From assembly GCA_030272585.1 (NCBI GenBank), contig BSYQ01000001.1:9687001-9751000 (forward strand): a stretch of 64,000 bases of DNA, given 5' to 3'. Source of the DNA: Bryopsis sp. KO-2023 (taxonomy: Eukaryota > Chlorophyta > Ulvophyceae > Bryopsidales > Bryopsidaceae). This document shows, in pieces, positions 3,001 to 33,549 of this stretch (position 1 is the first letter of the stretch; every line of letters begins with the position of its first letter). The notes beneath the pieces were generated by a model, which was not told the origin of the DNA, made no database searches, and worked only from the letters and a program-made list of their open reading frames with translations. Made by a program: the position numbers and the translations under genes.

Positions 3001-3049
3001 TTATTCTTTATTTCTTTCGGGTTTTTCTTTCGCGATTCACTTTCTTGAG

Positions 3050-5251: not shown

Positions 5252-5253
5252 AT

Positions 5254-5503: not shown

Positions 5504-5514
5504 ACTAGAATGGA

Positions 5515-8500
5515 ATGTCAAAACAGCGAGTGGGCCTCTTAAGTACCCCTAAGTGTAGTACGCTGACGCATGCCCCAAACTCTGGGTCTAATCTGTCTTA
5601 CTCGCGAACCCACATGCGTCAGCCACCCTCGGCTCTATCCCAAACTACCTCGTATAGCGCTAAAAGACTAACATATAGACCACCCCTGACAATACACCCT
5701 GAGTTTATCGGACCCATACCTGCCATATTTGAGGACGAGTGGGTTGCTGTGTGGTGCCATCGTTTCCGCGCGAAGAGTTTTTGGTGGATATATCAGAGTG
5801 TACTCACAGGCCTGTTAACCAAGGAAGAGGGGGACTCACAAACTCGTGAGCTGTTCAGTAACGACTTATCTGGTCTTTTCAAGCTAGCCCGAGACAGAGC
5901 GCGTGATCACGAGGTCTCACGGCTGTTCTGGGGAGAGCACGAGGCAGCACGGCTGGGTACAGAGCGAGTGGAAGAACGGGTATCGGAGGAACTGCGAAAA
6001 GCCGAGCAGCAGTGGAAAACGAAGTTCCTCAAGGGTCTTGAAGACGAGTACCACCAAAGAACGGAGGGAGACGCCGAGGGATCACGCCCAGCAAGCAGAA
6101 GTTCCCCAGATCTGAGTGGCGGCGCAGGAGAAGTTGGAGAAGTTGGAGAACCTGAGGAAAAACCGGACAGCGAGATCAGTGAAGAGAGCCTTGGTGGCGG
6201 CGCGGAGACAGTGCACGACGAGACTGAGCAAGGCAGCGCGAGAGAGCAGCCCAGGGTTGAGTCGGAGGACGAGGAAAGAGAGAGCCACGAAGACTTTCCC
6301 CGTGATTGGGAAGCCGAGGTTGTTGTAGAAGAAGTCGGAGTCGAACCTGTTGAAGAAGGAGCCTCCGAAGGAGATCTTGTTGGAGCCACTGACCAAGAGG
6401 AAGCCGAGGTTGTTGTGGAAGAAGTCGAAGTCGAACCTGTTGAAGAAGGAGCCTCCGAAGGAGATCTTGTTGGAGCCACTGACCAAGAGGAAGCCGAGGT
6501 TGTTGTGGAAGAAGTCGAAGTCGAACCTGTTGAAGAAGGAGCCTCCGAAGGAGATCTTGTTGGAGCCACTGACCAAGAGGAAGCCGAGGTTGTTGTGGAA
6601 GAAGTCGAAGTCGAACCTGTTGAAGAAGGAGCCTCCGAAGGAGATCTTGTTGGAGCCACTGACCAAGAGGAAGCCGAGGTTGTTGGGGAAGAAGTCGAAG
6701 TCGAACCTGTTGAAGAAGGAGCCTCCGAAGGAGATCTTGTTGGAGCCACTGACCAAGAGGAAGCCGAGGTTGTTGTGGAAGAAGTCGAAGTCGAACCTGT
6801 TGAAGAAGGAGCCTCCGAAGGAGATCTTGTTGGAGCCACTGACCAAGAGGAAGCCGAGGTTGTTGTGGAAGAAGTCGAAGTCGAACCTGTTGAAGAAGGA
6901 GCCTCCGAAGGAGATCTTGTTGGAGCCACTGACCAAGAGGAAGCCGAGGTTGTTGTGGAAGAAGTCGAAGTCGAACCTGTTAAAGAAGGAGCCTCCGAAG
7001 GAGATCTTGTTGGAGCCACTGACCAAGAGGAAGCCGAGGTTGTTGTGGAAGAAGTCGAAGTCGAACCTGTTGAAGAAGGAGCCTCCGAAGGAGATCTTGT
7101 TGGAGCCACTGACCAAGAGGAAGCCGAGGTTGTTGTGGAAGAAGTCGAAGTCGAACCTGTTGAAGAAGGAGCCTCCGAAGGAGATCTTGTTGGAGCCACT
7201 GACCAAGAGGAAGCCGAGGTTGTTGGGGAAGAAGTCGGAGTCGAACCTGTTGAAGAAGGAGCCTCTGAAGGAGATCTTGTTGGAGCCACTGACCAAGAGG
7301 AAGCCGAGGTTGTTGTGGAAGAAGTCGGAGTCGAACCTGTTGAAGAAGGAGCCTCTGAAGGAGATCTTGTTGGAGCCACTGACCAAGAGGAAGCCGAGGT
7401 TGTTGTGGAAGAAGTCGGAGTCGAACCTGTTGAAGAAGGAGCCTCTGAAGGAGATCTTGTTGGAACCACTGACCACGAGGAAGCCGGTGTTGAACCAGTT
7501 GAGGAAGGAGGAAGTGCGGCCGTTCCAGGGAGTAGCGGAGAGACCAACGGAGTGGGATCAGGCGGAGGAACTGAGTACCACAGCGCCGCTAGTTGGGCGG
7601 AAGGAAGAGCCTATCGTATCGAGCCAGGGTTTCCAGAGGACCCTTCTGAGCCATCGAGTACCACTTCAGACGAGGAAGAGTCCCACGAAGGAGAAGGCGA
7701 AAGAGAGTCGACCTCCAGTTCTGGGGAAGGATCGTTACCCCCAGATCAGCCCCCGCTGAACCCATTTTTTGCCTTTGACGAAGAAGAAGGCGAGAGTGGA
7801 TCATCCTCCAGTGCTGAAGAAGAACCGTTACCGGACCAGCCCCCGCTGAACCCATTTGCCTTTGAGGTTGGACTTCCCTATCTCCAACCACCAGTCCCAC
7901 CTGTTCCTCCACCCGTTCCACCTGTACCACCTGGTCCACCACCAGTCCCTCCACCACCTCCTCCACCACCTCCTCCACCACACCCACCAGGCGGAGTCGG
8001 TGCCATGGCCCACCCCAGAGGACCTCCAAACAGGCTGATCAACAGTCAGTTAACAGCCTTCACTGGGGCAGAGAAGGAAGATGTGGCCACCTGGATACGG
8101 TCATACGAGATTCTCGCCACAGGCTCAGGGTGGAGTGTACCACCAGCGGTGCCGGACCATGAGGATCAGAGAATTGAGAGACTCGTCCTGTATACGACGG
8201 GGAAAGCGCGGTCATGGGTGGACAATTGGACGGCCAGGCACCCTACACATGTGGGAGGGGCACCGAACCCAGAAAGGACATGGCAAGAGTTACAAATGGG
8301 CATGTTGGCAAGGTTTGGAGTGGCGCCAGCGACGTTGGTGGCCCGTATCTTGGAACGGAAACAAAAGAATGACGAAACTGTGGGGGAATACGCTTCGGCA
8401 CTCTCCCAGATGCAGCAACAACTCAATGCGAGTCGAGCCCCAGGCAGTCCAGCCGTGGCTGACGAACTTCTACTGCAATTGTTTAAGAATGGAGTGCGGG

Positions 8501-10782
8501 AGGATCTTGCCCCCATCCTGCTGGGTTTTACAGGAGATACCCTGGATGAAGCAGTGGCCAGAGCCAGACAGATCGAAGAGAGACAAGTGCGGCCGGGGCC
8601 AAAGCGAAAGACAACGATCAACACACTGGAGGAACTGCAGGACCAAGCAGTGATGGAGCCAGTCCTGGCGGAAGTAAATATTATGGATCAGCGGGTGAAC
8701 GAACAAATTGAGAATTTGAGGAAGGAGGTGCGCGAACACCAAACCACTACGGACTCGCGGCTCAGAGGAGTGGAGCAGCATGTGAGAACCTCTGGGCAGC
8801 AGTTTGGCGAACTCAAAAGTATGATCTCCACTCTATCAGGAATGGTGGCGGATGTGAGACAGCCTAATGTGCCAGAGCCAGGAGGAGGGAACTATGGAAA
8901 CACTGGGGGTACCGGAGCAAACCAAGTGCCAATCAATGGAGGCAGAGGGCAAGGGGCCTACAGAGGCAATGGCTGGGGAAATGGAGGAGGCAGAGGACGG
9001 GGGACTCGGAACAATGGCAATGGAGGAAGAGGCTGGGGAGGAGGGCGTTATGATGTGAACAAAGTCAGATGTTGGCACTGCTCGCGCCTTGGCCATTATG
9101 CCAGCCAGTGTCCCGAACATTTAAACTTCTTCCAGGCGGAAATGGGGGACCACCTGGTGATGGACTTTGAGCAAACGGACCCTGGGGCAACCACCACAGA
9201 AGGACCCGAGGAGGTTCTGGCACCAATCTGGTACTCTGAAATGGATATTGACCACGGGGGCTTGGACGGGGACCAGGGAGGCAGTGGAGGAACCCCCATG
9301 GACACGAGCCCAATACCTTCGGAACCTCGAGCAGATGCTGGGGAGGAAGTTGTGATGGAGGAACCAAAGGAGGAACCAGAACCCCCACAGCAGGAGGAGA
9401 AGACAAAGTCTGTGCCTGAACCAGAAGGTGTGCCGAAGCCACAAGATGAGCCACAAGGATCGAGACCAGTTATGTTACCACCGATGTTCCCACCACCCAT
9501 GCGGCCACCGTCCCCACGGAATACCATGACCAAGAAAAAGAAAATGGGGAAAAAGACGGCGGGAGAGCCAAAGGAGAAGAAAATGTTTACCGCGACAGAA
9601 GCCAAAAAGTTTGTGGAGGGCCTGATGACGGAGGTTCCAGTGGCGAGTCTGTGCCAGCACCACCCAGAGTTGATCGATGCATGGTTGAAGGCACTGAGGG
9701 TGCCCATGGCTAAAGTACCTGCAATCACTACTGTGGAGGGAGTGGGCAAGCCAAGCCCATATGCAGTCACTACCGCCACAGCCAAGATCATGGAGACCAA
9801 GGTACCAGGGGCCATCATTGATACGGGGGCGAGTGCTTGTGTGATATCGGCCCAACTCCTAGCACGGACAGGGTTGACCCACCTGATGGAGGCACCGAAG
9901 GGGAGGTACAGGGATTGCAATGGCGAGACTAGGCAAGCTCTGGGGTACATCCCTGCCCTGCCCATCGCCCTTGGACAATGCAAACAGATCGTACCGTGCC
10001 ATGTAGTGGAGAACGAACATCTATCCCTGATCATTGGGACCCCGTGGTTGGTGGATACCGGTACAGAGATCCACTTTGGTTTCAAGCGGCTCACTCCGTG
10101 TGTGGCAGGACGGCGAGTAGGTCACGTACCCATCGAGTTCCTTCACACAACGACGCCTGAGAGTGCTGCAGTCGTCGCAGTTTACCAAACCCTCCGATCG
10201 ATCGAAGAAACGAGCGCCGCCCCAGAACCGCCAGCAGCCCCCACTGGAAAGCAGCCACAGCAGGATTCAATGACGAGCCAAACGCCACCAGGGGAACGCC
10301 GACCAGATGGGTTCATCCAGCCCTACCTCTACGTTCCTCAACCCCCTCCTCTGTGGATCACCAAGCGCCAGAAGGCGGTGCTGCAGGAGTGCTGCACCAT
10401 TCGGCGGGAAAAGGGGATGAGTGAGGCGGCGGCCACACATCTGTATCTCCAGGAGGCGGAAATACTGGACACCAGGGGGAGGCACCACGGAGGGACAAAG
10501 AGGGAGTTCAAAAAGATCCACGACGAAAGGTTGAGATGCGAGGGAGAACCGAGAAAAAGGGATGCTATCACAAGGGAGTATTTCCGAAGGTGCGACGCTG
10601 TGACGAGCGCACAGAGGGAGGAGTCGGAGGAGATGTTGGGGCACTTCCGCAGGGAGGCCCAGAGGTGGAGGCCAGTGGAGGGTGGCGAGACTGGAGGGGG
10701 GACCTCCACAGCAGCCGCAGCTGGCGGGGAGGGGAGGAGTGAGCCACCAAGGGTGGTGAGCTACGACTCCTCGGATTTTTAA
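5515..10782 (+). CDS. Gag-protease polyprotein of a large Ty3/gypsy element
   Basis: The frame encodes 1755 aa. In order: an N-terminal unique region; a 13-copy, 30-residue acidic repeat (residues about 266-655); Ser/Glu linkers; a proline-rich tract (about 785-830); a Retrotrans_gag-type capsid domain (about 839-1025); a Gly/Arg/Asn-rich stretch; a CCHC zinc knuckle CWHCSRLGHYASQC (bases 9070-9111, residue 1186 on); a Pro/Glu/Lys-rich linker; an aspartic protease with the motif IIDTGASA (D at 9820, residue about 1436); and a charged tail after the protease. Gag packages the RNA and the protease matures the particle. The frame is closed by a TAG at 5506, right beside the other element's LTR, so the original N-terminus or leader may be lost. 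pol lies in the -1 frame, open across the stop. Confidence 0.85.
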   Translation: MSKQRVGLLSTPKCSTLTHAPNSGSNLSYSRTHMRQPPSALSQTTSYSAKRLTYRPPLTIHPEFIGPIPAIFEDEWVAVWCHRFRAKSFWWIYQSVLTGLLTKEEGDSQTRELFSNDLSGLFKLARDRARDHEVSRLFWGEHEAARLGTERVEERVSEELRKAEQQWKTKFLKGLEDEYHQRTEGDAEGSRPASRSSPDLSGGAGEVGEVGEPEEKPDSEISEESLGGGAETVHDETEQGSAREQPRVESEDEERESHEDFPRDWEAEVVVEEVGVEPVEEGASEGDLVGATDQEEAEVVVEEVEVEPVEEGASEGDLVGATDQEEAEVVVEEVEVEPVEEGASEGDLVGATDQEEAEVVVEEVEVEPVEEGASEGDLVGATDQEEAEVVGEEVEVEPVEEGASEGDLVGATDQEEAEVVVEEVEVEPVEEGASEGDLVGATDQEEAEVVVEEVEVEPVEEGASEGDLVGATDQEEAEVVVEEVEVEPVKEGASEGDLVGATDQEEAEVVVEEVEVEPVEEGASEGDLVGATDQEEAEVVVEEVEVEPVEEGASEGDLVGATDQEEAEVVGEEVGVEPVEEGASEGDLVGATDQEEAEVVVEEVGVEPVEEGASEGDLVGATDQEEAEVVVEEVGVEPVEEGASEGDLVGTTDHEEAGVEPVEEGGSAAVPGSSGETNGVGSGGGTEYHSAASWAEGRAYRIEPGFPEDPSEPSSTTSDEEESHEGEGERESTSSSGEGSLPPDQPPLNPFFAFDEEEGESGSSSSAEEEPLPDQPPLNPFAFEVGLPYLQPPVPPVPPPVPPVPPGPPPVPPPPPPPPPPPHPPGGVGAMAHPRGPPNRLINSQLTAFTGAEKEDVATWIRSYEILATGSGWSVPPAVPDHEDQRIERLVLYTTGKARSWVDNWTARHPTHVGGAPNPERTWQELQMGMLARFGVAPATLVARILERKQKNDETVGEYASALSQMQQQLNASRAPGSPAVADELLLQLFKNGVREDLAPILLGFTGDTLDEAVARARQIEERQVRPGPKRKTTINTLEELQDQAVMEPVLAEVNIMDQRVNEQIENLRKEVREHQTTTDSRLRGVEQHVRTSGQQFGELKSMISTLSGMVADVRQPNVPEPGGGNYGNTGGTGANQVPINGGRGQGAYRGNGWGNGGGRGRGTRNNGNGGRGWGGGRYDVNKVRCWHCSRLGHYASQCPEHLNFFQAEMGDHLVMDFEQTDPGATTTEGPEEVLAPIWYSEMDIDHGGLDGDQGGSGGTPMDTSPIPSEPRADAGEEVVMEEPKEEPEPPQQEEKTKSVPEPEGVPKPQDEPQGSRPVMLPPMFPPPMRPPSPRNTMTKKKKMGKKTAGEPKEKKMFTATEAKKFVEGLMTEVPVASLCQHHPELIDAWLKALRVPMAKVPAITTVEGVGKPSPYAVTTATAKIMETKVPGAIIDTGASACVISAQLLARTGLTHLMEAPKGRYRDCNGETRQALGYIPALPIALGQCKQIVPCHVVENEHLSLIIGTPWLVDTGTEIHFGFKRLTPCVAGRRVGHVPIEFLHTTTPESAAVVAVYQTLRSIEETSAAPEPPAAPTGKQPQQDSMTSQTPPGERRPDGFIQPYLYVPQPPPLWITKRQKAVLQECCTIRREKGMSEAAATHLYLQEAEILDTRGRHHGGTKREFKKIHDERLRCEGEPRKRDAITREYFRRCDAVTSAQREESEEMLGHFRREAQRWRPVEGGETGGGTSTAAAAGGEGRSEPPRVVSYDSSDF
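6310..7480 (+). repeat. 90-bp minisatellite, 13 tandem copies, inside gag
   Basis: Thirteen near-identical 90-bp units encode 30 residues each, rich in Glu and Val with an EGASEGDLVGATDQE-type core; a degenerate 14th unit follows to about 7515. The first unit and the last three share a Gly codon (GVEP) where the middle units have Glu (EVEP), and the last three also carry TCT for TCC. Such graded variation is typical of arrays that expanded from the middle. The unit length is a multiple of three and lacks stops in several frames, which explains the long overlapping shadow frames on both strands. Confidence 0.95.
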
Positions 10783-11420
10783 GTGGGCCGGCCACCGACG
10801 ACTTTCTTCGGCGACACCTGAAGGGGTGGCGGAGGTGGTTCGGTCCCACAAAGGGGAATAAAGGGAAAAGGGGAAGAGGGCGGCGTGGCAAGCGTGCGGG
10901 TAAACGAGAACAATGGCGTCGAGCAGGCAGGAGGATCAAGGAGCAGGAAACGAGAATGCAACGCCAAACGGAAGAAGTAGAAAGGGCCAGGAGTCTGTGG
11001 CCGGACTCATGGGCCATGCAATGCTTAAACCATAGCAGAACAGTGGAGGCAGAAATCCTTATGAGGGAGGGAATGGGAGAAGAAAAAGAAAAAAAGGGAA
11101 AAGAAAATTCAAGGGAAAGGAAAGCCAAAGAAACAGAAAAAGAAGAGGAAAGAAAAGAAAAAGGAGAAAGAAAAGAAAGGTTTGGGTTGAGGGAAATGGG
11201 ACAGGCAGCAGTTTTGCTGCAGGAAAATCAGATTTGGGCAGGGGTGGTTCCCCTTGGGACTTCTGATGTAGAAAATAAAACGTTTGCCACAGAAAAGGAA
11301 AGGGAAGAGAAAAAGGTGTCACTTAGAGAAAAACTGGAAGAACTGAAAATTAGTCCCCATCTTACCCCCCACCAAAGAAAAGAGCTGCTGGAGCTTCTGC
11401 AGCAGTACCCCGATGCCTGT
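10783..11420 (+). pseudogene. Start of the gypsy pol frame, interrupted by insertion
   Basis: The pol frame is -1 relative to gag-protease and has no stop from before the gag stop (10780-10782) to 11420; its first ATG is at 10956. The encoded stretch is very rich in Lys, Glu and Arg, then ends with a Leu-rich helix typical of the segment before reverse transcriptase. At 11420 the frame is broken by the 9-kb non-coding element and resumes in frame after the duplicated CCTGT at 20436-20440. Without the insertion the two parts would be continuous. Confidence 0.8.
11416..11420. other. Target-site duplication CCTGT, left copy
   Basis: CCTGT precedes the LTR here and recurs directly after the other LTR at 20436-20440. 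Five bp is the usual target duplication for gypsy-type integrases. Confidence 0.93.
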
Positions 11421-11650
11421 TGATAGGGGCCCTTCCCCCAGAGGGGGAAGGGTAGATAGGGGCCCTCCTCCAAGTGGAGGAGGGTAGAACGTGGGAACAC
11501 AACACAATAGCAAACCCAGCCCCAAAGGTTACACAATGTCAAAAATACAACCCTTTAAGTACCGTCCACAACACACTAACCCCTTACTCTACAGTGACAC
11601 ACCCACTCACCGATGGGACATCTAGACACTAACCTCGTCACCTCGTATCA
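11421..11650 (-). repeat. 3' LTR of copy B
   Basis: The 230-bp repeat reads TGATAGGGGC...CGTATCA on the plus strand and I see no difference from 20206-20435. The plus-strand start holds two inverted repeats, CCCTTCCCCC/GGGGGAAGGG and CCCTCCTCCA/TGGAGGAGGG. In the element's sense these sit at the very end of the LTR (U5). Confidence 0.95.
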
Positions 11651-14600
11651 ACTACTCCCCCCCCCCCCCCGAGTGGTGTCCTCAGCACTCAAGAAAGTTA
11701 AGCGCGAAAGAAAAACCCGAAAGAAATAAAGAATAAGTAGTTTGATTGGCCGCTAAAAAGAGAAACAGGGCCATCCACTGAACAAAACACGAAGAAAAAT
11801 AGAAAAATAGAAAACAAACCTCACAATCATGCAAACAAGATGATTTTCAAACGGCATAACAGATCCCATACTCTGTGAAATCCAAAAACCTTGTGTCTCT
11901 TGCTTGGACGGATGCCCGCTTCTTCGTCTGCTTGCTTCATCAGGGCATTTAGTAATAGCCCGCTCAAGCCTCTCCTAACTCGTGGTTCTATGATGCGGAT
12001 GTGGATTCCGCCCACGAGTACCGCCAAGGAGAAGGTTAAACATGGCATAAGCATTGCTTGCAATGTCTTCTTGCTCGTGATTCAGCACACGAACATGAAG
12101 AAATGCCCGCTATGCTTTATCCGTTCAAGACTCCAAGTCCGCGCAAGCTTAGATTATAACTTCCGCTCGCTACCTCGCTTCGCAGTTTCACTTAGTCGGA
12201 AACCATAAGCTTCGCTCTTGTCAGACACTCTCCTGTAGTCCGCTGCTGTTGATATCCGCTGCGGCTTTTCATCCATTGCAGTTTTGGTCAATTCCAATGC
12301 CGCTGCAATTCCTTGGTCAGATTTCCACTTCCGTTTTCTTCATTTACAACTGATATTTTTCCTTCCTTCCACGGTACATCTTCGTTCTTCGCTCGGTAAA
12401 ACGCTTGGTCGGATATCACTTAGGCACAACACTCCATTCGTTACGTTTATCCGCTAGTATAGAAGCGGTCATCAGTGTAGAGATTTGTCCGAGGCCAAAT
12501 CCTATGCGGATACCCCCAGGATCTCACTAAGCTGGTTGACTGCTAGAGTCCCCACTTAGCAGCGAGAGCCAGTACACCGATGAGAAGTCCGGCTGATCTC
12601 TCAGCTTCTTCTCTCTTCAACGTCCCTACGAATCTCCCATGAGTTTGTCCGCCGCAACACCTCAGAACAATAGCCGCTCGAGCATATCCATAACATGTAT
12701 GGCCACTGCTATAGAGATTTGTCTGAGGCCTACATTTCCCCCAGGATCTCATCGAATCACAATCCGCTGGTTGGCTACTAGAGTCCCTACGTAGCAGCGA
12801 GAGCCAGTATATGCAGCAGAGCGTCCGGCCATTCCCTGACCTCTTCGTCCTTTCTGCTCCAGTGCTATTGTCTTCAGTGGTCCGCTCCAATGTTTTTCCG
12901 AGTTTGGGTCTTCAAATAATGTCCGCTCCTTCTTCGGCGGTTTGAATTAATCCGCCCTGGTGGTCCAATTTAATCCACCCTGGCGATTCTTTGTTGTCTT
13001 CGGCCAATCCTCTGATGCTTTGGTAAACCCCCATAAGTCTCCAATACATCCTCAGCTTCAGAACATCCATAATCCGCTCGTGACTGAGTCAATCGTTGCA
13101 TAGCTACCCTCACGCCTCCAAGTCGGTTGTTGATCAGAACTTCCGCTTAGTGTTGTCCGGTAGGTCGCTCCAACGTTCGCTTTGACGCCCTTTCATTCGT
13201 TCGTAATTGTACGTGCGACCGTGATCCTCAAATTCCGCCGTGGCTGATATTTTCCGCCTTGACTGATTTTTTCCCGCTTTGGCTCTTTGAGATCATCAAT
13301 TCCGCCTTCATATTCCGCTCACTGGAATTGTGTCGCTTCTTCAGGCACAATATCCGCTTCCACAGGCACAATTCCGCTTCTGCAGCACAATTTCCGCTTC
13401 TGCAGGCACGATATCCGCCTTAAGTACTGGATTTTGTCCGCCCAAATGCTTCTTGTCTTCGTATTCGCTAGCAATGTGATTCCGCCAAGATTAACCCGCC
13501 AGTCATATCCCAACAGGCTTAATCCGCTGGTCACAATCCGCCAGTTGAATACCCTTCAAGTTCTCTTCAGAACTTCGCTTCTTCCGCCGTAGTCGAAGTT
13601 GCTTTTTTCCTGACAAGTGCATTATTCGCTTCAGTTGCTGTTTCCGCCAACTGATGTACAATTAATCCGCCCGAACGAATTCAGTCACTCAGCTGTATGT
13701 GTCTTCCGTCTGCACGGGTCATAGTTCAGGATTTATTTCGGTTTCTTTCTTTGCTCGGCTTCTGTGATAATCCGCCCTTCGGTCAGTTCCACGTCCGCTC
13801 GAGGTTCCTTCGTTGGAGAAGAGTAATTTTTGAATGTCCGCACATTCCTTCTTTTGTTTTCCATTGCATGAGCCGCCACCTCCGTCGTCTTTGGATCCTT
13901 CTCACGGCATCGCTTTGTATGTAAACTTCCCAAAGTTTCACGGTTGCGTCTATAGGTAGTAAATCACCAACTGAGTATTTCCGCTTACTCCATCCCTATA
14001 GAATCGCAATGTGTGCTCATTTTTCGAGCCCGCTATCTCTTCGATACTGTCTAGATCCAAACACGAGTCGATTCTTTTCACCGCAGATAGTCCGCTCTCA
14101 TCAATGCTCGGTTAGTCCCCAAGTTCCGCCACTTCAAAACTTGTTGACTTCCACACGAAATATACTCCATATACCTTCCGCCACAGAGATTACCTTTTAA
14201 CCCCCGCCTTCCAAAGAACCTTGGAAATAGTCCGCCAGCAACAAGACGATCTTGTCCGCACTATCCATTCAGATACCACTAAATAGAAAGTTCCGCAAGA
14301 AAGAGTTAAAGGAATGTCAGTCCGTCGACTTCCGCTCCTCAGACAAATAACGCGGGTACCACTTGGCAGTGTTCACCTTCCCCGATGGTTTTTGTCTCTC
14401 TTTTACCTTGCACGTCCAAAGTTAAATCGCCTTTGGATAATCCCCTTGGTCCTCCTTCTGCGCGCTTGTGGCTTGGCAAATCCGCTCTTGATCCTATTTT
14501 TAGCGGGGTTTAGTTTGCTGGAAGTCAATGCACGCCTTCCCGAGAAGAAAGTATCCGGGTAACCCCCGTCGGGTTACTCCTTGTTCGAACAGCAGTTCCG

Positions 14601-17600
14601 CCTGAGGGGAACTGTGCATACCTGTTCGCCCCTTGACAAGCGAATTCCTAACGCACTTTGTCTCCATCAGAGGACAAGCGCATATCAATTTTGTCCCCGG
14701 CTTGGGTCGCAATTGATTGTTGGAATTCCTCCTCCTTATCCATCACGCTTGACTTGTCTCCGGAGGAAGACCTTCGTCTTCTCTTTAGTACCCTGAACGA
14801 TAATCTCCAGCTCAACCGACTAGCGGGCCAGTGTTCGTACCACGGCTGTCCAGAACACTGGTTGAGGAGCTTGCCCCCGTTTTCCTGCTGCAAGACATCC
14901 CCGTCAGAGTTCCCGCTTTGTCGCCCAAACAGTCCCCTCTCAACTGTTGGTATTTCGCCCGAAGTCTTGAGCTCTTCATATCCTCTTCTGTCCGCTGGTT
15001 TCTGCACAATATGTGGCACTTCCGCCCGTGGTCTTGTATTGAACAAAAGCCTTGTAATCCGCCTTCCAAATCAGCATAGTCGTCCCTTCTTGTAGTTCCA
15101 CGCAAGTTCACCTTCAAAATCCGGCTCTAGCGGTCGTATTTAACCCGCTCTGGCTGTCTGATTTCATCTGCCTTTGGAATTCGTTTTGAAGTCCGCCCTT
15201 GAGCTTTTCATAGTCCGCCTGATGAAGCTTTACTCCGCCCGAAGGCTAAACTTTTAGTCCGCCCTCTAGGTGTTTAATCCGCCTAAGGGCTTAGTCCTCT
15301 TTAGTCCGTCCTCCAGGTGTTTAATCCGCCTAAGGGCTTAGTCCTCTTTAGTCCGCCCTCCAGGTCCGCTTCTCAGGTCCGTCTTCCTCAAGGTTGCGGT
15401 CTTGGACTTCCTACTTCAAATTATCGTGTTCCTCCTTGTCCAAGTTGAACTTTGCTGATGTAAGGAATCCTTCGGAAGTTTAATGTCGCGTAAAGGCACA
15501 CACCTTAACACAGGCGTTCAAAACAACCAGGAATAGACCGTTCTCCCTATGGACAAGGGTGCCGACGGATTACCCGGTTCTGCACATTTCACTGAATGGG
15601 CTGTCAATGCACAATACTCGAATTAAATTCTTCCTCCACACATATTTGCAGTCCGCTGACAGAGCTTGAAGCATCTTCTTTTTGTCGAACTTATTAACAT
15701 CTTCAACAATCCGCCACACTCAGATGACTCTAAGGAGTTCTGGTGTGCGTTCCAACGCTTCGTTCTTAGCTCCAAGGTACTTGGTTTCCCTCTTAGTCCG
15801 CCTTTTGAAGAGGTTCACCACTTCTCTCTCGACTGGTATATTTCTCCACTTCAACAAATCTGCCCGCTCACTCGCCTTTAAGTGTAGCATCCAAGGAAAC
15901 TCTGTTTTCCGCCCTGACCACCTGTCAGTGGATGCTCCGCGGTCGCTAGTTTGGACCTCTAGCGCGATTTGTTTGTTTGTCAACCTTCAACCAGATTGCT
16001 TCGCCTGGTTCAAGCTCTCCTAGCTTGGGTCTCTCAGTATACACCATAACAGTCTTGCCAGACTGGTTGAAACTACCGCACCTCAATAGTCTCCCAAGCC
16101 TTTTTGTCCACGTGGTGCTCATTGCTTGGTATGGCGTTTTAGGCTGCTCTGGTTGCTCCACAAAGTTAGGCCTCGGCGTGGATTGCGCCATCCCTGGTCT
16201 TTGGGATTTGTCCGGCCTTCTGGCATTCATCCATCGTGCACACCTGGATTTCCGCCTCTTTGTTGATTATGCTCCACGCATAACCGCCGCTTCCACGCTC
16301 AATCTTTATTTGCCTCCTCTCCAGCCAATCCGCCTTCCGCTATGCTTTTCGCCATTCCAGGAAGTCCCCATCCCCTGTTTCCGCTTGACAAGTAGCCAGC
16401 CAAATCTCTTTTAAAAGATCCGCTCAGGAAATCCGCCCCAACTCTCTTTGAGATGGGCGTTATCAGACCCACTTCCCTGTGGTTGTCCGATTGATTCGCT
16501 GCTTCCTTTGTCCGCGTTTTGGGTTTTTCTGGTAATGGTCTCTTATTTCTCAAGCATTTCTTATCTGCCCAGGAAACTATATATCACACAAAGTGTAGTG
16601 GCACTTAAATTCCGCCACTTGCCCTCCATTGATCAGGCAATATCCGCCTGTCTTGTAGTCTAATTCATCCTTCCAGGCTTGTTACCAAGACGTAGTATTT
16701 CCGCTCTTGGTGACCACTATTTGTTGGAATCCGCTCTTGAGCAATGCTCGGTCAATATTTGTCCGCTAAGGCTTCAAATAAGAGCTGTATTCCGCTTCTT
16801 TGATCGTGGTTCTTCCATCCTCTCAATGGTGGACAACTTCTTCAATTTGCGGAATCAAAGCACTCCTTTTTCCGGCCACAAAGCTTCAGAACTCCCATTT
16901 CCTCGCGTCTAGGTTTCTGGGATAGTTTGGAACCTTATAGTCCGCCTTGGAGTCCGCTTTGGAGTCCATTCTCCCCATCATCATTGCTGGATCCATCCAT
17001 TCCATGCCTGCTTCAGTATTGTCCGGTTTAGGTCGAATCTGCTGGCGCCATAGGCTGCTCAAGCTAGTAATCCGCCTATACACTTTAGTGTTCCGCCATC
17101 TGAAGCAATATCCGCTCATGTCGTGGATATCTGTCGTTAGCTTCTTTCCAATTCCAATTCCAGTCAATATTTCGCTTGCTGGTCCTTCAAGCTTTGGATT
17201 AAGCTCCTAGAAATCTCTATTTAGTGGCGCCCTTCTTAGGTCGGCCTACTTGTTCAAAATTTCCGCTTTAATCCCCAACTGACAGTAGTATTCCGCCTCC
17301 AGCAACTCTTGAAGTCGTAATGATGATGCAATTCCGCTCTTGTGAAGTACTTCATCCAAATGTGTCTTCTGCGGTAGGACTCATCTCCCTGGCACTAAAT
17401 AATCCGCTTCTCTGACAAGTTTCCTCCACTCCGACATGCTCTTATGCATCTTTTTCCGCATGCTTTGTCATTTGCAGGACCTTCCATAATTTTGTCAGTA
17501 GCACTCCTTATCCGCTTGGTAGCTTTTTCCGCTCTTCAGGTTCGGTTAACTCAATGCCTTACACTGGCTAATACGAGTATAATCCGCCCTTACTTCCAAT

Positions 17601-20205
17601 CCACTTGATAATCCGCTTGTGCTCTTGCTTCTGACAACAATCCGCTGACTCTTTGCTCGCGCTCCATGCTGTTCAAAGCTCGAACTGTTACAAAACACGC
17701 TTGTCGGTGATCATATTTGAATGCTCCATATGATATATCTAATAGCCAATATAGGGAACACATTTACTCCGCTCTTTGGATGCCTGTATTGTCTGTCACT
17801 TATTCCGCTTGCACCTTTGCTGCATTGGAATTTCCGCTCAAGACACACACCCTCATCGCCTTTGCATTCTGCCTCAGCAGTCCGCTCTAAAAGTCCGCCT
17901 TTGCCTTAGCTTTTAGTCCGCTTAGTGCAATAGTTTGACGGCTGTAATTTGGTCGATGAATACTCCTTAGACTTTTGGGTGTTGTTCTTGGCGCTAGACT
18001 TCCATTTGTGGCTAGTATTGTGAGCCATATCCGCTCAATGGTTTGTGGTAATGTCCGCCCTGACCAGACGTATGATTCCGCTTAGTCCTTCAGCCAATAG
18101 TCCTTGGACCTGACCATCCAGGTTGGCTCTTTTATTTCCGCTCTGGTTCTTGACGGTCTAATTTAATCCGCCTGACGGTATAATTTAGTCCGCCTTGACG
18201 ACCTCATTTAGTCCGCCTCTGCTATTCCGCTGGTGAAAAGAGAATGAATTTTTCCGCTCGTGATCCTCGGTTGGTTCCATGGAAACTCGGTTAGTTCCAA
18301 AGAATACCACCATACACTTCCACGGCAATAACCTCTAATTCTTCTTCTTCACTCAGCCCGGAATATCACAGTCCACTACCACATCCATTAGACCTCAAAG
18401 TTTACCCACAAGATATCCGCTCAGAGCTTCACTTGCCCGTTCATAACATTAAGTCACAAACATCCAATGTGGCACTGCTATTGCGTGCTCCTTAATCAGA
18501 TTCAAGCTCTCGAGAATGCTCGATAGCTCGCGGCAAGCTACATTTAATCCGCTCGTCTTATATCAGCTTGTGTGAGGTCTTGGCCTATTGAAAGTCCATT
18601 CCAAACGAACTATACTCTCCACCAGCTCCTTCTGCAACAAATCATTCTGCATACTTAATAGCTTAGCAGATGATTCCTTCTCTTCCGCCCTGCGTACTTA
18701 GCAGCTTTGCAGGCGGTTTAATCCCCCACTTGGGCGCGTTGAACTCCACTATCGCTTGAACTCGATTTGTAGGTAACTGGCAGGCCGCTCTTCCGCTCTC
18801 TATTAGCCTGGCGACTTCTTTTCTCTCTTTGTCTTCTTGTCGCTAGTTGTGCTTACATTCTTCCGCTATGGTCCAACTCTTGGCAGTATAAAGTCTTTGT
18901 CTTGTTATCTTCGCACTGAAAATCCGCTCTTTTGCGGTTGCTAGTCCGCTGGGTGATCAGCCCAGGCGGTTTGTGTGTTGATACAGACTCGTTTCTGCTC
19001 CTGCCATGTAACACAACCTCCAGCTCCTGTTTCATAACCGCCTCCAACTCTTGATGTATTAAAATCCGCCTCCAACGCGATCGTGAAACTACCGTAGTTC
19101 TAGCCTCGATACTTCGCCGATATTCCGTGTTGTGTGTCCGCTGGTGCTCCTCCAAGCTTAACCGCTTTAGCTCACAACAACACCGCCTATCCTTCCTCCG
19201 CGTTGGAATATCATAGTCCGCCCAGCAGAGTGTAAGGGCAGCAGTTCGCTGGGCCATTTTGCCCGCCTTCTGCCTCTGTCCGCCCTCACTCTCCGCCGTT
19301 TCCGTTTAACCGCTTTGGCGGACTTCGTTTTTCCGGCTCTGGCGAACTACCTCGGAGTTCTGTCCGCTCCCTTTTTCCGCCACCTATTTTGTCCGCTGCG
19401 CCATTTTGTCCGCTGTCAGACTCGGGCCTTTTCCATTCGCTGTCTGACTTTGGCTCGTCCGCTGCACTTCCGGCTCGCCATTTCCGCTCTGCGGATTCCG
19501 ATGTAACACTTCCGCTCCGCGGATTCCGCTGTGATACTTCCGCTCTGCCAAATTCCGCTGTAACACAGTGTGACATGACTGTATGTCCGACAACGGAATT
19601 TCTGGCAGCTGTCACAGGCGCAGTCGTCGACTTCTTGCGCAGCAACTATCCGCCACCACGCATTCGCCGTCCGTGTGTCGAACTTCCCTCACGAACGTTG
19701 ACTCGAACTTGGTTCGTCCATAGGTGGTTCGTTTGTAGGAGATCTTTGCAGATCTGCTGTAGATCTTCTTCCAGAAATTTACAGGTTCTGTCGAAACTTT
19801 GTCTTAGGGAAACTTAAGCTCTCAGCTTTTCTTTCCACTGCTTTTCGAGCTCTTTCGACCTGTTTCGAACTCTTTTCGACCACTGTGCTGTCCTTTAGGT
19901 TAACAGTCACAAGGTCACCTGCAGATTTCTGTAGATCTGACCCTTAGATCTCTTCCTGCGACGGGTTCCTTTTCGTTTCCTTCTCCTCGCCTCTACCCCG
20001 ACCTTTCCAGTGCTTACGAACTCGTCGCTCGCACTCGCGCTCCTTCGATCCCACCTAGCACCACCCCCTTTGGTGCCATCACTCCTTGCCCATCCCCTCT
20101 TGATAGGCACTTAACCTAGCCACTGACTTTTTCGTCGTCAGGTGGCTCCTCCTACAGGGTCGTCCGTCCTCGTCGTCTAGGGACGCCCAAGCTCCGAAAC
20201 CAAAA
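11651..20205 (-). other. Interior of copy B: motif-saturated, no genes seen
   Basis: No domain-bearing ORF, tRNA or rRNA was found in this 8.5 kb. Its main content is a dispersed pentamer, TCCGC on the plus strand (GCGGA in element sense), usually one or two per 60 bases and almost always on one strand. A short local duplication of a Gly/Pro-like unit around 15250-15370 (aatccgcctaagggcttagtcc) is also visible. The 5' end in element sense (about 19900-20190) can encode a basic peptide of about 60 residues, which I do not consider supported. Confidence 0.8.
20191..20202 (-). other. tRNA primer-binding site of copy B
   Basis: On the minus strand this reads TGGTTTCGGAGC, three bases after the LTR end. 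It is identical to the sites of two other elements in the window and fixes the orientation of the non-coding element. Confidence 0.85.
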
Positions 20206-20435
20206 TGATAGGGGCCCTTCCCCCAGAGGGGGAAGGGTAGATAGGGGCCCTCCTCCAAGTGGAGGAGGGTAGAACGTGGGAACACAACACAATAGCAAAC
20301 CCAGCCCCAAAGGTTACACAATGTCAAAAATACAACCCTTTAAGTACCGTCCACAACACACTAACCCCTTACTCTACAGTGACACACCCACTCACCGATG
20401 GGACATCTAGACACTAACCTCGTCACCTCGTATCA
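20206..20435 (-). repeat. 5' LTR of copy B
   Basis: It appears identical over 230 bp to 11421-11650, with TGATA/TATCA termini, and is followed by the target copy CCTGT (20436-20440). Confidence 0.95.
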
Positions 20436-20440
20436 CCTGT

Positions 20441-21814
20441 GCTTGGTCCTCGGATCAAGTCGGGCAAACCAACATTTTATACCACGAGATCCCCACCGGA
20501 GATCATCCCCCCCTCAGGCAGAATCCCTACCGGTTCAGTTTTGCGGAGAACCAGGTAGTCAAATCGGAGGTGGCGAGGATGCTCCTGGATGGAGTGGTGC
20601 GGAAGTCAAAGTCCCCGTGGGCCTCACCGATCGTCTTGGTTCCAAAGCCAGATGGGTCGGTGCGGTTCTGTGTTGATTACCGCAAGCTCAACAAGGTGAC
20701 CACCCGAGATAGCTTTCCTCTCCCGAGGATAGAGGATGCGATCAACCAATTTTCGGAGGCCAAATTCTTTACCGCGCTGGATTTGAGATCAGGATATTGG
20801 CAGGTCAGGATGAGCACTGCCTCCGCGGAGAAAACGGCCTTCATCACTCAGGAGGGGCTATATGAGTTTGTGGTGATGCCCTTCGGGCTCAGTAACGCCC
20901 CAGCGACATTCCAAAGGATGATGAACGAGGTACTGGGACCTATGCTGTGGAAGGGGGTGATCGTGTATTTGGATGATATCATCATCTATGCGGAGACTTG
21001 GGAAAAGCATCAGGAGATCTTGGCAGAGGTGCTGCAGCGGCTGAAGGAGGCCAACCTGAGGATCAGCCCGAGGAAATCGGACTTCGGGTTTGAGGAGCTA
21101 CTCTACTTGGGCCACATCGTGGGAAAAGGGGAAATCAAGATGAATCCGAAGAAGGTAGCCACAGTGGAGCTGCAGGAGCCACCGGTGGATGTGTCTACTC
21201 TGAGGTCCTTCCTTGGCCTTACTTCTTACTACAGGAGATTTGTGCGCGACTATGCAAGGATCGCTGCACCTCTGACGGAGTTGTTGAAGAAGGATGTGCC
21301 ATTTGCATGGAGGGAACGACAACAACAAGCATTTGAGAGGCTGAAGAAAAGCATAACCGATCAACCAGTCCTGGCTCCACCACAGCCACACTTACCATAC
21401 ACTCTACAGACAGACTGGAGTAGCCAGGCTGTGGGGGCAGTACTCTGCCAGAAGGATGAGCAAGGGAGAGAGCATGTGGTAGCTTATGCCAGCAAAAGAC
21501 TCAACCCAGCGGAGAAGAACTACTCGGTAGTGGAGGGGGAGTGCCTGGCAGTGGTATGGGCTTGCACCCTATTCAGGCCATACATCTATGGCACAGAATT
21601 TGTGCTGCAGACAGACCAGCGGGCATTACAGTGGTTGATGACAGGCACTAAACTGACGGGAAAACTGATGAGGTGGGCACTCCGCCTACAGGAGTTTGAT
21701 TTCAGGATTGAGTTCCGCGCTGGAAAAAGCAATGCGAATGCGGATGCACTGACCAGGCTTCCAGTTCCACTGGATCATCCGATAGTCAGTGGATCCACAG
21801 CACTTCGTCCATAA
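20441..21814 (+). CDS. Reverse transcriptase-RNase H of the gypsy element (pol, part 2)
   Basis: This is the continuation of pol after the insertion; the frame is open from the target duplication, with the first internal ATG at 20570. RT shows the fingers motif VDYRKLN, the LDLRSGYWQVR catalytic block, MPFGLSNAPATFQ and the active site YLDD (20966-20977). RNase H follows with its four acidic positions in TDWSSQAVGAVL, VEGECLAVVW, LQTDQRALQWL and NANADALTR. Together they copy the RNA genome to DNA and degrade the RNA strand in the particle. The frame ends at TAA 21812-21814. Two more in-frame stops (21890, 21953) separate it from integrase, so integrase is not continuous with RT as usual. Domains look intact, but the element cannot make full-length pol because of the insertion upstream. 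Confidence 0.92.
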   Translation, partial: AWSSDQVGQTNILYHEIPTGDHPPLRQNPYRFSFAENQVVKSEVARMLLDGVVRKSKSPWASPIVLVPKPDGSVRFCVDYRKLNKVTTRDSFPLPRIEDAINQFSEAKFFTALDLRSGYWQVRMSTASAEKTAFITQEGLYEFVVMPFGLSNAPATFQRMMNEVLGPMLWKGVIVYLDDIIIYAETWEKHQEILAEVLQRLKEANLRISPRKSDFGFEELLYLGHIVGKGEIKMNPKKVATVELQEPPVDVSTLRSFLGLTSYYRRFVRDYARIAAPLTELLKKDVPFAWRERQQQAFERLKKSITDQPVLAPPQPHLPYTLQTDWSSQAVGAVLCQKDEQGREHVVAYASKRLNPAEKNYSVVEGECLAVVWACTLFRPYIYGTEFVLQTDQRALQWLMTGTKLTGKLMRWALRLQEFDFRIEFRAGKSNANADALTRLPVPLDHPIVSGSTALRP

Positions 21815-21973
21815 GGATCTTCCGGGGATCTCAAGATCATGGCTGGAAAAAGAGGAACCATTGTTGGTCCAATGGGGGTACTTCTAGACTGAAGGCAAGG
21901 CCACACGAACCCCGAAAAAGTAGCGTGGAACACCGTTACCATTCGGACTTCGTGATTTGCCACAGTTGCTGCC

Positions 21974-24900
21974 GTGATCAAAGGAGGAGGTCAAAGGAGA
22001 ATGGATCCATGGGCGGATGCGGAACTGATGGAATTCTTGAAAACAACGGCATTACCCGCTGAGAAACAAGCAAAAGCGAGGGTGCGAAAAAGGGGTCAGA
22101 GATATCGATGGGTGGGAGGAGATCTACACCCACTCAAGTGCTTGAGTAAACAAGGAGAATGGCTAGAGGTGCCAAAAGAGGAGCAAAGGCCAACTGTGGT
22201 CCGAAAAGTCCACAGAGAAAATGCGCACATCGGCGGCAGAGGATTGTGCCAGAAAGTGCAGCAGAGATACTGGTGGCCATATATAAGGAAAGAGGTAGAA
22301 CAAGTGTGGCAGACGTGCCACAGCTGCAGAAGAAGTCAGAAAGCGCCTAAGGAACGACACCCATTAAGGCAGCATATACCGTTAAGAGCCTGGGAGAGAC
22401 TGGGTATGGACTTGATCACCCTGCCCACCACCGGAACGGGAGAAAAATATGTGATAGTCATGGTAGACTACTTCACCAAGTGGACGATCGCCGGGGCATT
22501 AACGAGTAAGAGGAGTTCTGCGGTGGCGGCGTGGCTGAAAGCCTCGGTGTTCCATCCATATGGACCGCCCGCCTCCATCATCACAGACAACGGGAGTGAA
22601 TTCGAAGGAGAGGTGGCAGAACTTCTACAGCAGTGGGGAGTCCAGCTGAGGAAAGGACGCCCATACCACCCGGAGACCAATGGGCTGGTCGAAAGAATGA
22701 ACCGGGAGATACAACAACTATTGCGGAGGGAGTGTGGCGGCGGGATCACGCCCCAATGGCCGGAGAAACTGCAGGAGGTGATTTATGCTATCAACACCAG
22801 GGAACACACCTCCACCGGACTCAGCCCCGCCAAGGCATTGTTTTTCCGGGAGTTTTCCACCAAAACCAAACGAAATGAACGCTTAGCAGAATTGCGAGGG
22901 GAGTTACGCCGGGCAGATGCAGTGGAGCTGCAGCGCCAGGTCACCCTAAGGTTTATGAATGAGGAGAGGAAAGCTCAGGAGGGGAGTCTTGCCAGAGCCT
23001 TGCAGAAAGCAAGGGTCAAACAGCAGCTGGGGCACCTCTGGGAGACGATCAGGCGGGGTAAAGCTCCAGCAGAACTGCAAGTAGGGGACATGGTGATGTT
23101 GTGCTCAACTCGGTTCCCCTACCACCCCAAGGAGATGGAATTTAATCAGGGGCCATGGATGGTCCAGGAATTACGTGGGGATTTGGTAAAGGTGGGTCAG
23201 ACCCCAAGGGATGCATGGACTGTGGACAGGGTACAGTGTCGCCTCATTGAGAGGACGGACGTGGAGGAGTCTCGTGGCGGAAGTGCAGAAAAACCCAACA
23301 GCGGCGGCGAATTGTTAGACGAATTTGCACTTTTCGAGAGCCCAGCGACCATGTTCCGAATCGTATGTTTCCTGGCCATTATATGTGGCGTGTTGAGTAG
23401 TGGCGGAGGCGGAGTAGGGCCAATCGGTGGCGCACGTGAGGGTAGCGGCGATCAGCCAGAGCGAGGGGGCAGTGGATCATCGCAAAGGGGTGGCGGAAAT
23501 CAACCAGGGCAAGGAAATGACGACACACCCATGGCTGAATCCGGCAGCCTCGATACAGCAGATTTGGAGGCGGAATATGGATTGCAGGAGGAGGAGACAG
23601 TGGAGGAGTTGGTCAGCGAGCCCATGGTGGAGATCGCTTTTCCAGCAGCCGGGCCATCACAACCTCCACCAGTAGAACTCCCCGCCACCTTCCGAAATCT
23701 GCCGGTGGAGCTGCAAATTGATGCAGTGGCCGCGTACTTTGCGGCGATCCTTGCGAGCCATATGACCCAGCCGGAAACCCAGAATGTTGCCACCCAAACC
23801 GACGAAGAAGAGCAGCGGGATCAGGGGTCGCAGGCTACCTGCGACATGGTGCCGTGGAATCAATGGGAGCAACAACGGAGGCGGATGAAGAAGATGGCGG
23901 ACCTCTTGGATCGCCAGAAGGATCGGATCGTGGAACTGACGGGGAAGGAAAAAGGATCGCTACACCCCCGGAGCAGCCACCCACGAAAGAAAACGGTGAA
24001 AAGCCTCAAGGCTGGGGACATTGGGGAAGGAGGAAAGCCACCCCCTCAGTTGGGTCCAGAAGACTTGGAGGAAGCTACAGCAACATTAACAGGAGAACAG
24101 CCACTCCATCAGCCTGGACAAGGAGGTCTGGAGGGATCAACAGCAGCAACAGCAGCCACAGCAGCAACAGCAGCCACAGGAGGGGGGCAGCATGAGGAAA
24201 CCACAGTGGGGGAAGGCTCAGGATTGGTTGGGAGTGAAGCAGGGACTGGGGAGAAAGTGGGGGAGGAGCAGCCAACAACACCAGAGGATGAACCCCCAGC
24301 TCCAGCTGATGTGATCCCAGGAAGCCCACCACATCCACAGCCACTGTCGGCTCAGGAATGGGCGGAGGTGCAGAGGGAGGAAAGAGATCGATCGTTGGCG
24401 GGACACCAGCCGCTGCCTGGGATGCATTACCGGAGAGGATGGGAGGAGAGGGTGTCACAGCCTCGTGTGGAGGAACCTGATCCAGTTCCGTTTGCCCACC
24501 AAGCGGAGCAAGCAGGACCCCAGGATCCACCAGCTGAACTCCCAACGACGGAGGAAGTGCCTCCAGCCTCCCAACTCGTCTTGCTGCCACCAGGGCCAAT
24601 CAGACCACCAGCTCCACCCATGGCGGGACCTCGGCCACCACGCCCCTTCCAGATGTTCCAGAATGTCCAAGCCCCATTCGCGTTCGGAGCAGGAACTCCC
24701 ACAGGAACTACCCCGGGATTAAGCCAAAGCGGGACTCCAGCATCGAAGGGAGGAGCGCCAAGGAAGGGCCCAACCACTAGACTCGCCTCAGGAAAAGGGA
24801 AGCTCAAGAAGGTCGTCTTGGATTTTTCAGGAACGGATACGGAGACTGGCGAGGACGAAGGGCCCCCAGACGGAACAGCACCGGGTGATGGAAAGGGACA

Positions 24901-25492
24901 GCACGGCCAGAGCAGCGGCGGCGGCACTCCAGGGATGGGTACGCGTTGCAGCCGTTGTTCAAAACCGCCCGGCTCCAACGCGTACATCCCAACCGCCTGT
25001 AAGTTTGCTAACACACCCGGGCACCACCGACACTGCTCGCGAGACCGCTTTGGAAAATCCTGGAAAGCGTGTGCCAAGGATGTGTTGGCCATCCTCGTGG
25101 CCTTGCGGCGCCCCGACCTCTTCTGCCGCGGACGCGAACTCACGCTGGGGGACATCCCGGCGGCGGACCTTTCATGGATCCCGGAGTATCGCCCTGGCAT
25201 CACCGCCGACGAGGTCTTCCAAAATCGCTGCTGGCGATGCGAAGCGGAAGCCAGAAACTTCCCAACGACGGCATACTGGCGCACGCTGACGGCGGAGATG
25301 TGGGGGCGATACCCCGAGCTCCGTCGGCCGTTCCCTGACGAGATCCCCCTGGAGAGAGGCAGCGCAGCCAAGCGGCCCCGAGAAGACGAAGGTCCAGACG
25401 ATCCAGCAGCAGGAGGAGAGCCGCCGGAGCACTGTCGCGGAGGTCAGGGAGGACCGCCACCACCACCACCACCGCCGCCGCCGACAGCCTAA
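21974..25492 (+). CDS. Integrase with a ~700-residue C-terminal extension (gypsy pol, part 3)
   Basis: The frame encodes 1172 aa; the first true ATG is at 22001, while 21974 (ATC-rich leader) is only the frame boundary region. The zinc domain has HRENAH and CHSC. The catalytic core has D at 22409, D at 22586 (ITDNGSEF) and E at 22691, giving the D-35-E spacing of active integrases. A C-terminal DNA-binding-like domain ends near residue 435. An extension follows that is absent from ordinary gypsy integrases. It has a hydrophobic stretch MFRIVCFLAIICGVLSSG (from 23351, residue about 460), long Gly/Pro/Glu low-complexity regions with Ala/Thr repeats, a Pro-rich block, and a Cys/His-rich C-terminal domain (about 990-1110, with CSRC, HHRHC and CWRC). 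I do not recognise that domain. Confidence 0.85.
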   Translation: MIKGGGQRRMDPWADAELMEFLKTTALPAEKQAKARVRKRGQRYRWVGGDLHPLKCLSKQGEWLEVPKEEQRPTVVRKVHRENAHIGGRGLCQKVQQRYWWPYIRKEVEQVWQTCHSCRRSQKAPKERHPLRQHIPLRAWERLGMDLITLPTTGTGEKYVIVMVDYFTKWTIAGALTSKRSSAVAAWLKASVFHPYGPPASIITDNGSEFEGEVAELLQQWGVQLRKGRPYHPETNGLVERMNREIQQLLRRECGGGITPQWPEKLQEVIYAINTREHTSTGLSPAKALFFREFSTKTKRNERLAELRGELRRADAVELQRQVTLRFMNEERKAQEGSLARALQKARVKQQLGHLWETIRRGKAPAELQVGDMVMLCSTRFPYHPKEMEFNQGPWMVQELRGDLVKVGQTPRDAWTVDRVQCRLIERTDVEESRGGSAEKPNSGGELLDEFALFESPATMFRIVCFLAIICGVLSSGGGGVGPIGGAREGSGDQPERGGSGSSQRGGGNQPGQGNDDTPMAESGSLDTADLEAEYGLQEEETVEELVSEPMVEIAFPAAGPSQPPPVELPATFRNLPVELQIDAVAAYFAAILASHMTQPETQNVATQTDEEEQRDQGSQATCDMVPWNQWEQQRRRMKKMADLLDRQKDRIVELTGKEKGSLHPRSSHPRKKTVKSLKAGDIGEGGKPPPQLGPEDLEEATATLTGEQPLHQPGQGGLEGSTAATAATAATAATGGGQHEETTVGEGSGLVGSEAGTGEKVGEEQPTTPEDEPPAPADVIPGSPPHPQPLSAQEWAEVQREERDRSLAGHQPLPGMHYRRGWEERVSQPRVEEPDPVPFAHQAEQAGPQDPPAELPTTEEVPPASQLVLLPPGPIRPPAPPMAGPRPPRPFQMFQNVQAPFAFGAGTPTGTTPGLSQSGTPASKGGAPRKGPTTRLASGKGKLKKVVLDFSGTDTETGEDEGPPDGTAPGDGKGQHGQSSGGGTPGMGTRCSRCSKPPGSNAYIPTACKFANTPGHHRHCSRDRFGKSWKACAKDVLAILVALRRPDLFCRGRELTLGDIPAADLSWIPEYRPGITADEVFQNRCWRCEAEARNFPTTAYWRTLTAEMWGRYPELRRPFPDEIPLERGSAAKRPREDEGPDDPAAGGEPPEHCRGGQGGPPPPPPPPPPTA

Positions 25493-33547: not shown

Positions 33548-33549
33548 AA

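Follow-up and report, generated by a model that had tools for sequence, protein, structure and literature searches.

Large non-coding long terminal repeat (LTR) derivatives, or LARDs, are non-autonomous LTR retrotransposons that combine two LTRs, a primer-binding site (PBS), a polypurine tract (PPT) and a 5-bp target-site duplication with a long interior devoid of gag and pol, and that occur as recent copies. How such protein-less elements prevail when competing for helper particles is, to our knowledge, an open question. In fission yeast, the meiRNA of the Mmi1 system (determinant of selective removal, DSR) is a non-coding RNA carrying copies of a short word. Here, we analysed a 64,000-nt stretch of the Bryopsis sp. 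KO-2023 genome (contig BSYQ01000001.1, positions 9,687,001 to 9,751,000; hereafter the window), in which a minus-oriented LTR element has its interior at positions 11651-20205, crowded with the word GCGGA on the sense strand of the element, the minus strand.

VANC and VANDAL21 constitute a sequence-specific anti-silencing system of Arabidopsis Mu-like DNA transposons (PMC5735166; PMC10398659). In the excerpted text of the first of these reports, the VANC21 motifs of VANDAL21 are 9 nt long with degenerate ends, dense, family-specific and in one orientation, related VANDAL families use other motifs, and the motif arrays are tied to tandem repeat formation (PMC5735166). A tandem-repeat origin would give VANC motifs one orientation by descent. 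The Bryopsis element shares with VANDAL21, as far as that text describes it, a short degenerate-ended motif found in one family at high density and in one orientation; a dense, oriented and family-specific word is a feature of VANC-type systems as well. The original prediction that no described element has this design is therefore too strong. However, the Bryopsis element is an LTR retrotransposon, its sites lie mostly outside tandem repeats, and the word is found within coding sequence in its relatives. With meiRNA it has in common a non-coding RNA with copies of a short one-strand word, whereas there the word is different and a host gene and a host protein are involved rather than a mobile element. 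From the LARD class as a whole it differs in that a single oriented 5-mer, apparently under selection, dominates the interior. No element with the GCGGA word or with such a design was found among open-licence literature by titles and the beginnings of abstracts. The element is thus a LARD by anatomy, new in its content and with one known parallel, VANDAL21.

The element is a young LARD of 9.0 kb in total. Its LTRs of 230 nt (5' LTR in element sense, 20206-20435; 3' LTR, 11421-11650; both minus strand) are identical at 230/230 positions, start with TGATA and end with TATCA, and the 5-bp target-site duplication CCTGT stands on both sides (20436-20440 and 11416-11420). The PBS TGGTTTCGGAGC (20191-20202, minus strand) lies 3 nt after the 5' LTR, and a PPT of 14 G followed by AGTAGT (11651-11670, minus strand) abuts the 3' LTR, so that both adjoin LTRs, as the LARD class requires. 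The interior exceeds 4 kb and has no recognisable retrotransposon genes: a Pfam scan of all 14 frames of at least 100 codons gave no match above the cut-off. The longest open frames have 150-193 codons, that of the sense strand (150) standing below the 95% point of shuffled sequences (154). The 14 frames are intact in 3/19 to 19/19 other copies, five of them in 17-19/19, and some are broken in most copies. A 33-bp unit occurs twice at the LTR end (11422-11488 and 20207-20273), each unit forming a G+C-rich hairpin by eye, and the doubled unit is also present (3249-3315) in the LTR of a second family member, copy A, which occupies positions 1-3316 on the plus strand, in opposite orientation, with its 5' part beyond the window (complete as L018).

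In element sense, 11651-20205 contains 125 GCGGA and 6 TCCGC, in agreement with the earlier statement that the complement is rare. The hand count of about 30 TCCGC on the plus strand in 12901-14340 proved exact (30, with 0 GCGGA), and copy A, described as alike, holds 43 GCGGA and 2 TCCGC in 1-3086. In 200 dinucleotide shuffles, GCGGA averaged 14.4 (sd 3.4, maximum 25), and its z is the highest among all 5-mers of the window copy. The density had been called similar through much of the interior; this stands for a motif body at 12007-19653 (minus strand), which holds all 125 words and whose ends, read by eye, are consistent with the computed word distribution, but not for the first ~550 nt (leader) and the last ~360 nt of the interior, where GCGGA is absent.

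The flanks of the word are constrained. The preference for AGCGGA and GGCGGA, already noticed before, amounts to 64 and 52 of the 125 words; a purine thus precedes 116/125, while A, C or T follows 119/125 and G only 6/125. With A or T (W) preferred at the next two positions, the full site reads R-GCGGA-H-W-W. Beyond -1 to +8, weak departures from background (p<0.01) were seen only at -15, -7 and -5 among the positions tested. One-mismatch words are close to background, except for a mild excess of GTGGA (21 versus 11.9) and GCAGA (22 versus 17.2), the CpG transition products of GCGGA. Spacing averages 61.6 nt (sd 61.3). None of seven periods tried was clearly prominent and no helical phasing was evident, as expected from the claim of spacing without fixed period, which nevertheless missed the rarity of short distances: start-to-start distances of at most 12 nt number 4 in the window copy versus 15.5 expected (0/2000 placements). 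The corresponding values are 3 versus 18.7, 3 versus 17.6 and 2 versus 15.1 in copies L019, L025 and L013, these four copies being related and hence not four independent tests. The rare short spacings, footprint-like, and the R-GCGGA-H-W-W context would fit a bound site.

Self-comparison of copy L019 revealed one internal duplication, and none appeared in five spacer-shuffled controls; apart from a few small tandem arrays, the spacers are unrelated, as had been claimed. A tandem or degenerate-repeat origin is rejected on this ground. Since the spacers are almost without homology, the sites arose independently and yet in one orientation. The word also falls in all three reading frames (47/44/34), which bears out the earlier exclusion of codon bias.

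The family has 40 or more members, complete or partial, in the 91-Mb genome (queries with the element ends gave 40 scored places each, from 44 and 46 candidates), and 20 further copies were fetched for comparison with the window copy. Their interiors measure 7.8-9.0 kb and contain 110-141 GCGGA and 3-6 TCCGC. The two LTRs match perfectly in the window copy and 15/20 others; in one further copy they differ by one change, in two they show no substitution (with a one-base offset in the script) and in two they were mis-registered and left unscored. Matching 5-bp duplications flank the window copy and 16/20 others, and two more form a tandem pair with a common LTR. In this pair, L009/L010 (G000:C11:3724315-3743309), the interiors are identical, a pattern as from unequal recombination. 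A three-word cluster pattern gave 375 matches in the genome and its reverse 2. Among the 100 matches listed of these 375 (contigs C1-C3), 98 fall at copies of the LARD family, and of the remaining two, that at C2:3311278 is followed ~200 nt downstream by the same PPT. The tract and LTR-start pattern (at most 2 mismatches) gave 236 matches versus 14 for its control, many of the 100 listed being outside known LARD places, and the LTR/PBS junction (at most 1 mismatch) occurs at 328 places, with several different LTR ends, versus 1 for the reversed control.

Selection on the word was analysed in 20 sequences, L010 being dropped as one of two identical interiors. Nucleotide diversity (pi) at motif columns is 0.0171, whereas spacer columns matched for base and CpG class predict 0.0303 (0/5000). 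The segregating fractions are equal (58/650 in the motif, 704/7829 in spacers), whereas the ratio of singleton to shared variants is 35:23 in the motif versus 248:456 in spacers (Fisher p=2e-4), and 21:8 versus 214:395 at non-CpG positions (p=1e-4). When the trinucleotide context was matched, 23 motif variants were present in at least two copies versus 46.3 expected (1/2000), and 35 were singletons versus 27 expected; the rates of shared variants in motif and spacers stand in a ratio of 0.61 (block bootstrap 0.36-0.87). Motif gains among copies number 10 versus 5.1 expected. Changes in the motif thus occur but spread less, and GCGGA is apparently kept by purifying selection during transposition. 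Of the checks proposed with the original prediction, 5-mer counts against shuffles and motif conservation against spacer drift came out in its favour. The copies are young, as judged from identical LTRs and target-site duplications, and yet the mean pi of the interiors is 0.024; diversity and selection must predate the present insertions, and selection presumably acted across many replication cycles. CpG sites are more variable than others. Moreover, several of the 21 larger between-copy deletions end in short word-containing repeats (AGCGGAAT, AAGCGGATTA, AGGGCGGACT), suggesting that a dense word array may cost stability.

Two chromodomain Gypsy elements, L034 and L035, are coding relatives of the LARD; being ~96-98% alike where aligned, they are counted as one family. 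The 27 nt across the PPT and LTR start are identical in the LARD, L034 and L035, the PBS is the same (TGGTTTCGGAGC), and GCGGA is in excess in all of them. They differ from the LARD in coding for gag, pol with a chromodomain and a third open reading frame (ORF3), in an LTR of 174 nt that is otherwise unlike, and in the enrichment of both word orientations in pol. L035 has identical 174-nt LTRs, an ATATC duplication and a gag frame (Retrotrans_gag in Pfam), and L034 pol matches reverse transcriptase (RT), RNase H, integrase and chromodomain in Pfam. ORF3, of 640 codons, is present in both (L034, 7350-9269; L035, reverse, 7383-9302), with a coiled coil and a Cys/His end by eye. No homologue of ORF3 residues 440-639 was found at E <= 0.001 among 2841 candidates, nor any match of the ORF3 end among solved structures; a domain common to four ORF3 ends is not claimed, as their alignment is too weak.

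Synonymous shuffling, which holds the protein and codon usage fixed, places GCGGA first of 1024 5-mers in L035 (74 versus 35.8). By gene, the counts are 28 versus 11.0 in gag (rank 1), 19 versus 7.3 in pol (rank 1) and 27 versus 17.6 in ORF3 (rank 3). In L034 ORF3, Ala before GA is written GCG in 32/34 cases versus 20/56 elsewhere; over five related copies, GCG stands for Ala before Glu/Asp in 32/34, 27/32, 22/24, 22/24 and 25/25 cases, compared with 33-42% elsewhere in these frames. In the ORF3 homologues of the sister copies L040 and L042, Ala before Glu/Asp is GCG in 3/10 and 3/12 cases and GCGGA is at expectation; the idea that the word stems from the ORF3 protein itself is thereby rejected. 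At the synonymous level, the L040/L042 ORF3 shows CCGAC (12 versus 4.5-4.8) and CGACA (14 and 17 versus ~6) among the top 5-mers; sister families may use other words, or the excess may be an effect of ORF3 peptide repeats. When L035 pol was compared with the homologous pol of L031, 12/14 aligned GCGGA and 9/12 TCCGC sites differed in L031, and L030/L031 has no excess (11 versus 10.5 expected). The 3' part of relative L033 holds 20 GCGGA versus 3.3 expected, with a purine before 14/20 and G after none, and L036, with the same tract, holds 8 versus 3.1 in its 3' part (shuffle maximum 11) and 5 versus 2.1 in ORF3. Of seven more 3' ends with the tract, L039, L041 and L043 are L035-like (23, 23 and 26 GCGGA in 1.5 kb), L038 has 8 GCGGA and 7 TCCGC, and L040, L042 and L044 have 3 GCGGA each. 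L038 (G000:C1:1628003-1629500) carries L035-kind pol sequence and then the PPT within 1.5 kb, and seems to be a derivative without most of pol and ORF3.

Judged from sequence, GCGGA is a lineage-specific signal. We tentatively favour, at a little below even chances, the reading that the LARD is moved by the proteins of L034/L035-type chromodomain Gypsy elements and that its sense-RNA GCGGA sites are captured for packaging. The LARD would be a non-autonomous element mobilised by a chromodomain Gypsy lineage that resides in this genome, with L034/L035 as its best representative and the likely helper. R-GCGGA-H-W-W would be the recognition word of this lineage, with one binder per ~13 nt; in the coding Gypsy it would occupy synonymous positions throughout gag, pol and ORF3, where it is over-used. 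The LARD, making no known protein, would have no cis-preference, and its site number would be driven to saturation. The bound molecule would most likely be genomic RNA, because the 125 independently placed sites are on the transcribed sense strand; we prefer RNA to DNA because tandem duplication cannot account for the orientation here, and among RNA functions we rank packaging highest, since a single lineage and the gene-free element are where the word is concentrated. Both sense-strand bias and selection on the word, the marks of an RNA packaging signal, were found. Gag or the ORF3 protein of the lineage are the candidate binders, and they may provide high-avidity RNA capture for assembly and reverse transcription. 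The former interpretation as many sites for a protein holds in part: bound-site-like spacing and context, selection and synonymous over-use in the Gypsy relative fit it, and the binding of RNA by an element-encoded protein at the packaging step is what we infer from them. A wider proposal, which we hold loosely as one possibility, is that the Gypsy lineage relies on a short, distributed and oriented word underlying its protein code rather than on a single structured signal for packaging, and that the gene-free LARD parasitises it by saturation. This suggests a landing-site code by which a parasite of a parasite borrows its relative's machinery. If true, the system would amount either to a distributed packaging code in RNA or to a counterpart of plant VANC anti-silencing in an LTR element, the first that we know of. 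With the word over-used in a recently inserted helper candidate and saturating a gene-free element, the competition question becomes open to direct test, now that the word, its spacing rule and candidate binders are defined.

Several results weigh against capture of the LARD RNA by this helper. L034/L035 and the LARD have only the 27 nt of PPT and LTR start and the PBS in common; the LARD LTR end and PBS (25-30 nt) match L029/L030, a family without GCGGA excess, and the LTR and leader of the LARD are otherwise not clearly like those of the relatives. L030/L029 as helper by leader homology was rejected, its scores being in or near the range of 200 shuffled controls. ORF3 alone ranks GCGGA third in L035 and sixth, fourth and fourth in L039, L041 and L043, and the L034/L035 ORF3 sites are without the R...H context. 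Other-family Gypsy frames also prefer GCG before GA mildly (32/99 versus 86/490, p=0.001; 47/132 versus 121/672 when L034/L035 gag and pol are pooled with them). The Gypsy that hosts the LARD insertion in the window has a mild GCGGA excess in RT and integrase (23 versus 13.8, rank 19; RT frame 6 versus 2.5, 12/1000; integrase frame 17 versus 11.4, 41/1000), its gag being at 9 versus 8.1. In the selection analysis, a cruder circular-shift test of motif pi is weak (109/5000), and significance was reached neither for singleton-to-shared ratios at CpG positions alone (14:15 versus 34:61, p=0.28), nor for CpG-only variants in at least two copies (p=0.065), nor for the depletion of motif variants in at least three copies (p=0.085). 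Predicted RNA folds show the motif no more unpaired than its anagrams. Finally, TCCGC comes first in L034 pol and ORF3 taken together (19 versus 6.4), with GCGGA second. In L035 it reaches 25 versus 10.4, chiefly from pol (reverse strand, 3042-7166), where it is the second most over-used 5-mer (14 versus 3.9), although it is rare in the LARD; an excess of both orientations is expected for a duplex-DNA site.

Because of this TCCGC over-use in the coding relative's pol, a DNA-level system like VANC/VANDAL21 is the main rival. An element protein, with ORF3 as candidate, would bind duplex GCGGA in its own family and in the LARD and keep both transcribed; we regard this as a serious but rather unlikely alternative. 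The anatomy of the 9-nt VANC21 motifs, with their degenerate ends, family specificity, density and single orientation, is much alike as given in the excerpted text (PMC5735166), and ORF3 is an accessory gene, the last 200 residues of its product being those without homologue at E <= 0.001. The higher variation at CpG sites would be consistent with cytosine methylation of LARD copies, but singletons at motif CpGs (14/265) are about as frequent as at spacer CpGs (34/637), with no sign of methylation protection. Duplex binding, moreover, offers no evident reason for a 125:6 bias among sites set in unrelated spacers, and would not be helped by the lack of prominent helical phasing. DUF1985, a VANC domain, was absent from the Pfam matches of L034 pol, L034 ORF3 and L035 gag.

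Sites for a host RNA-binding protein, serving export or stability or sequestering a restriction factor as a decoy in the way of meiRNA and Mmi1, would also explain a strand-specific, sharp and spaced site, and the architecture recalls that RNA with its copies of a short hexamer. We consider this improbable. Of the 100 dense clusters listed among 375, 98 fall in the LARD family, and the synonymous excess is strong in the L034/L035 family, mild in the host Gypsy and L036, and lacking in L030/L031 and L040/L042, which argues for a factor specific to the lineage and against a general one of the host. As to the decoy, its benefit would go to all elements and not to the carrier. It is more doubtful still, and in our view very improbable, that template switching at GCGGA during reverse transcription multiplied or shuffled the word without selection: the several deletions ending in word-containing repeats speak for it, but such switching would remove motifs and not add them, the spacers are unrelated to one another, the motif is depleted in shared variants, and duplication is no explanation for synonymous over-use in the coding relative. 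Codon bias of a decayed protein-coding element or a hidden gene, to which the Ala-Glu/Asp pairs written GCG-GAN in the relatives' ORF3 and the five well-preserved LARD frames might point, has next to no probability and is rejected, given the near-equal frame use, the avoidance of G after the word, the many broken frames and the absence of a Pfam match above the cut-off in any of the 14 frames.

The host Gypsy DNA into which the LARD inserted extends from 5509 to 11415 on the plus strand, with a gag frame of 1757 codons in which a CCHC knuckle is visible by eye and 13 copies of a 90-bp unit, 98% alike, occupy 6309-7486; its RT/RNase H and integrase frames lie beyond the LARD, at 20411-25492 (plus strand). 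Another Gypsy, of 4.2 kb, is found at 30877-35407, with identical 300-nt LTR stretches and Pfam matches to protease and RT in two frames and none to integrase; it is possibly another non-autonomous element. Other genes of the window include an AAA ATPase-like fragment and a TPR/APC3-like fragment.

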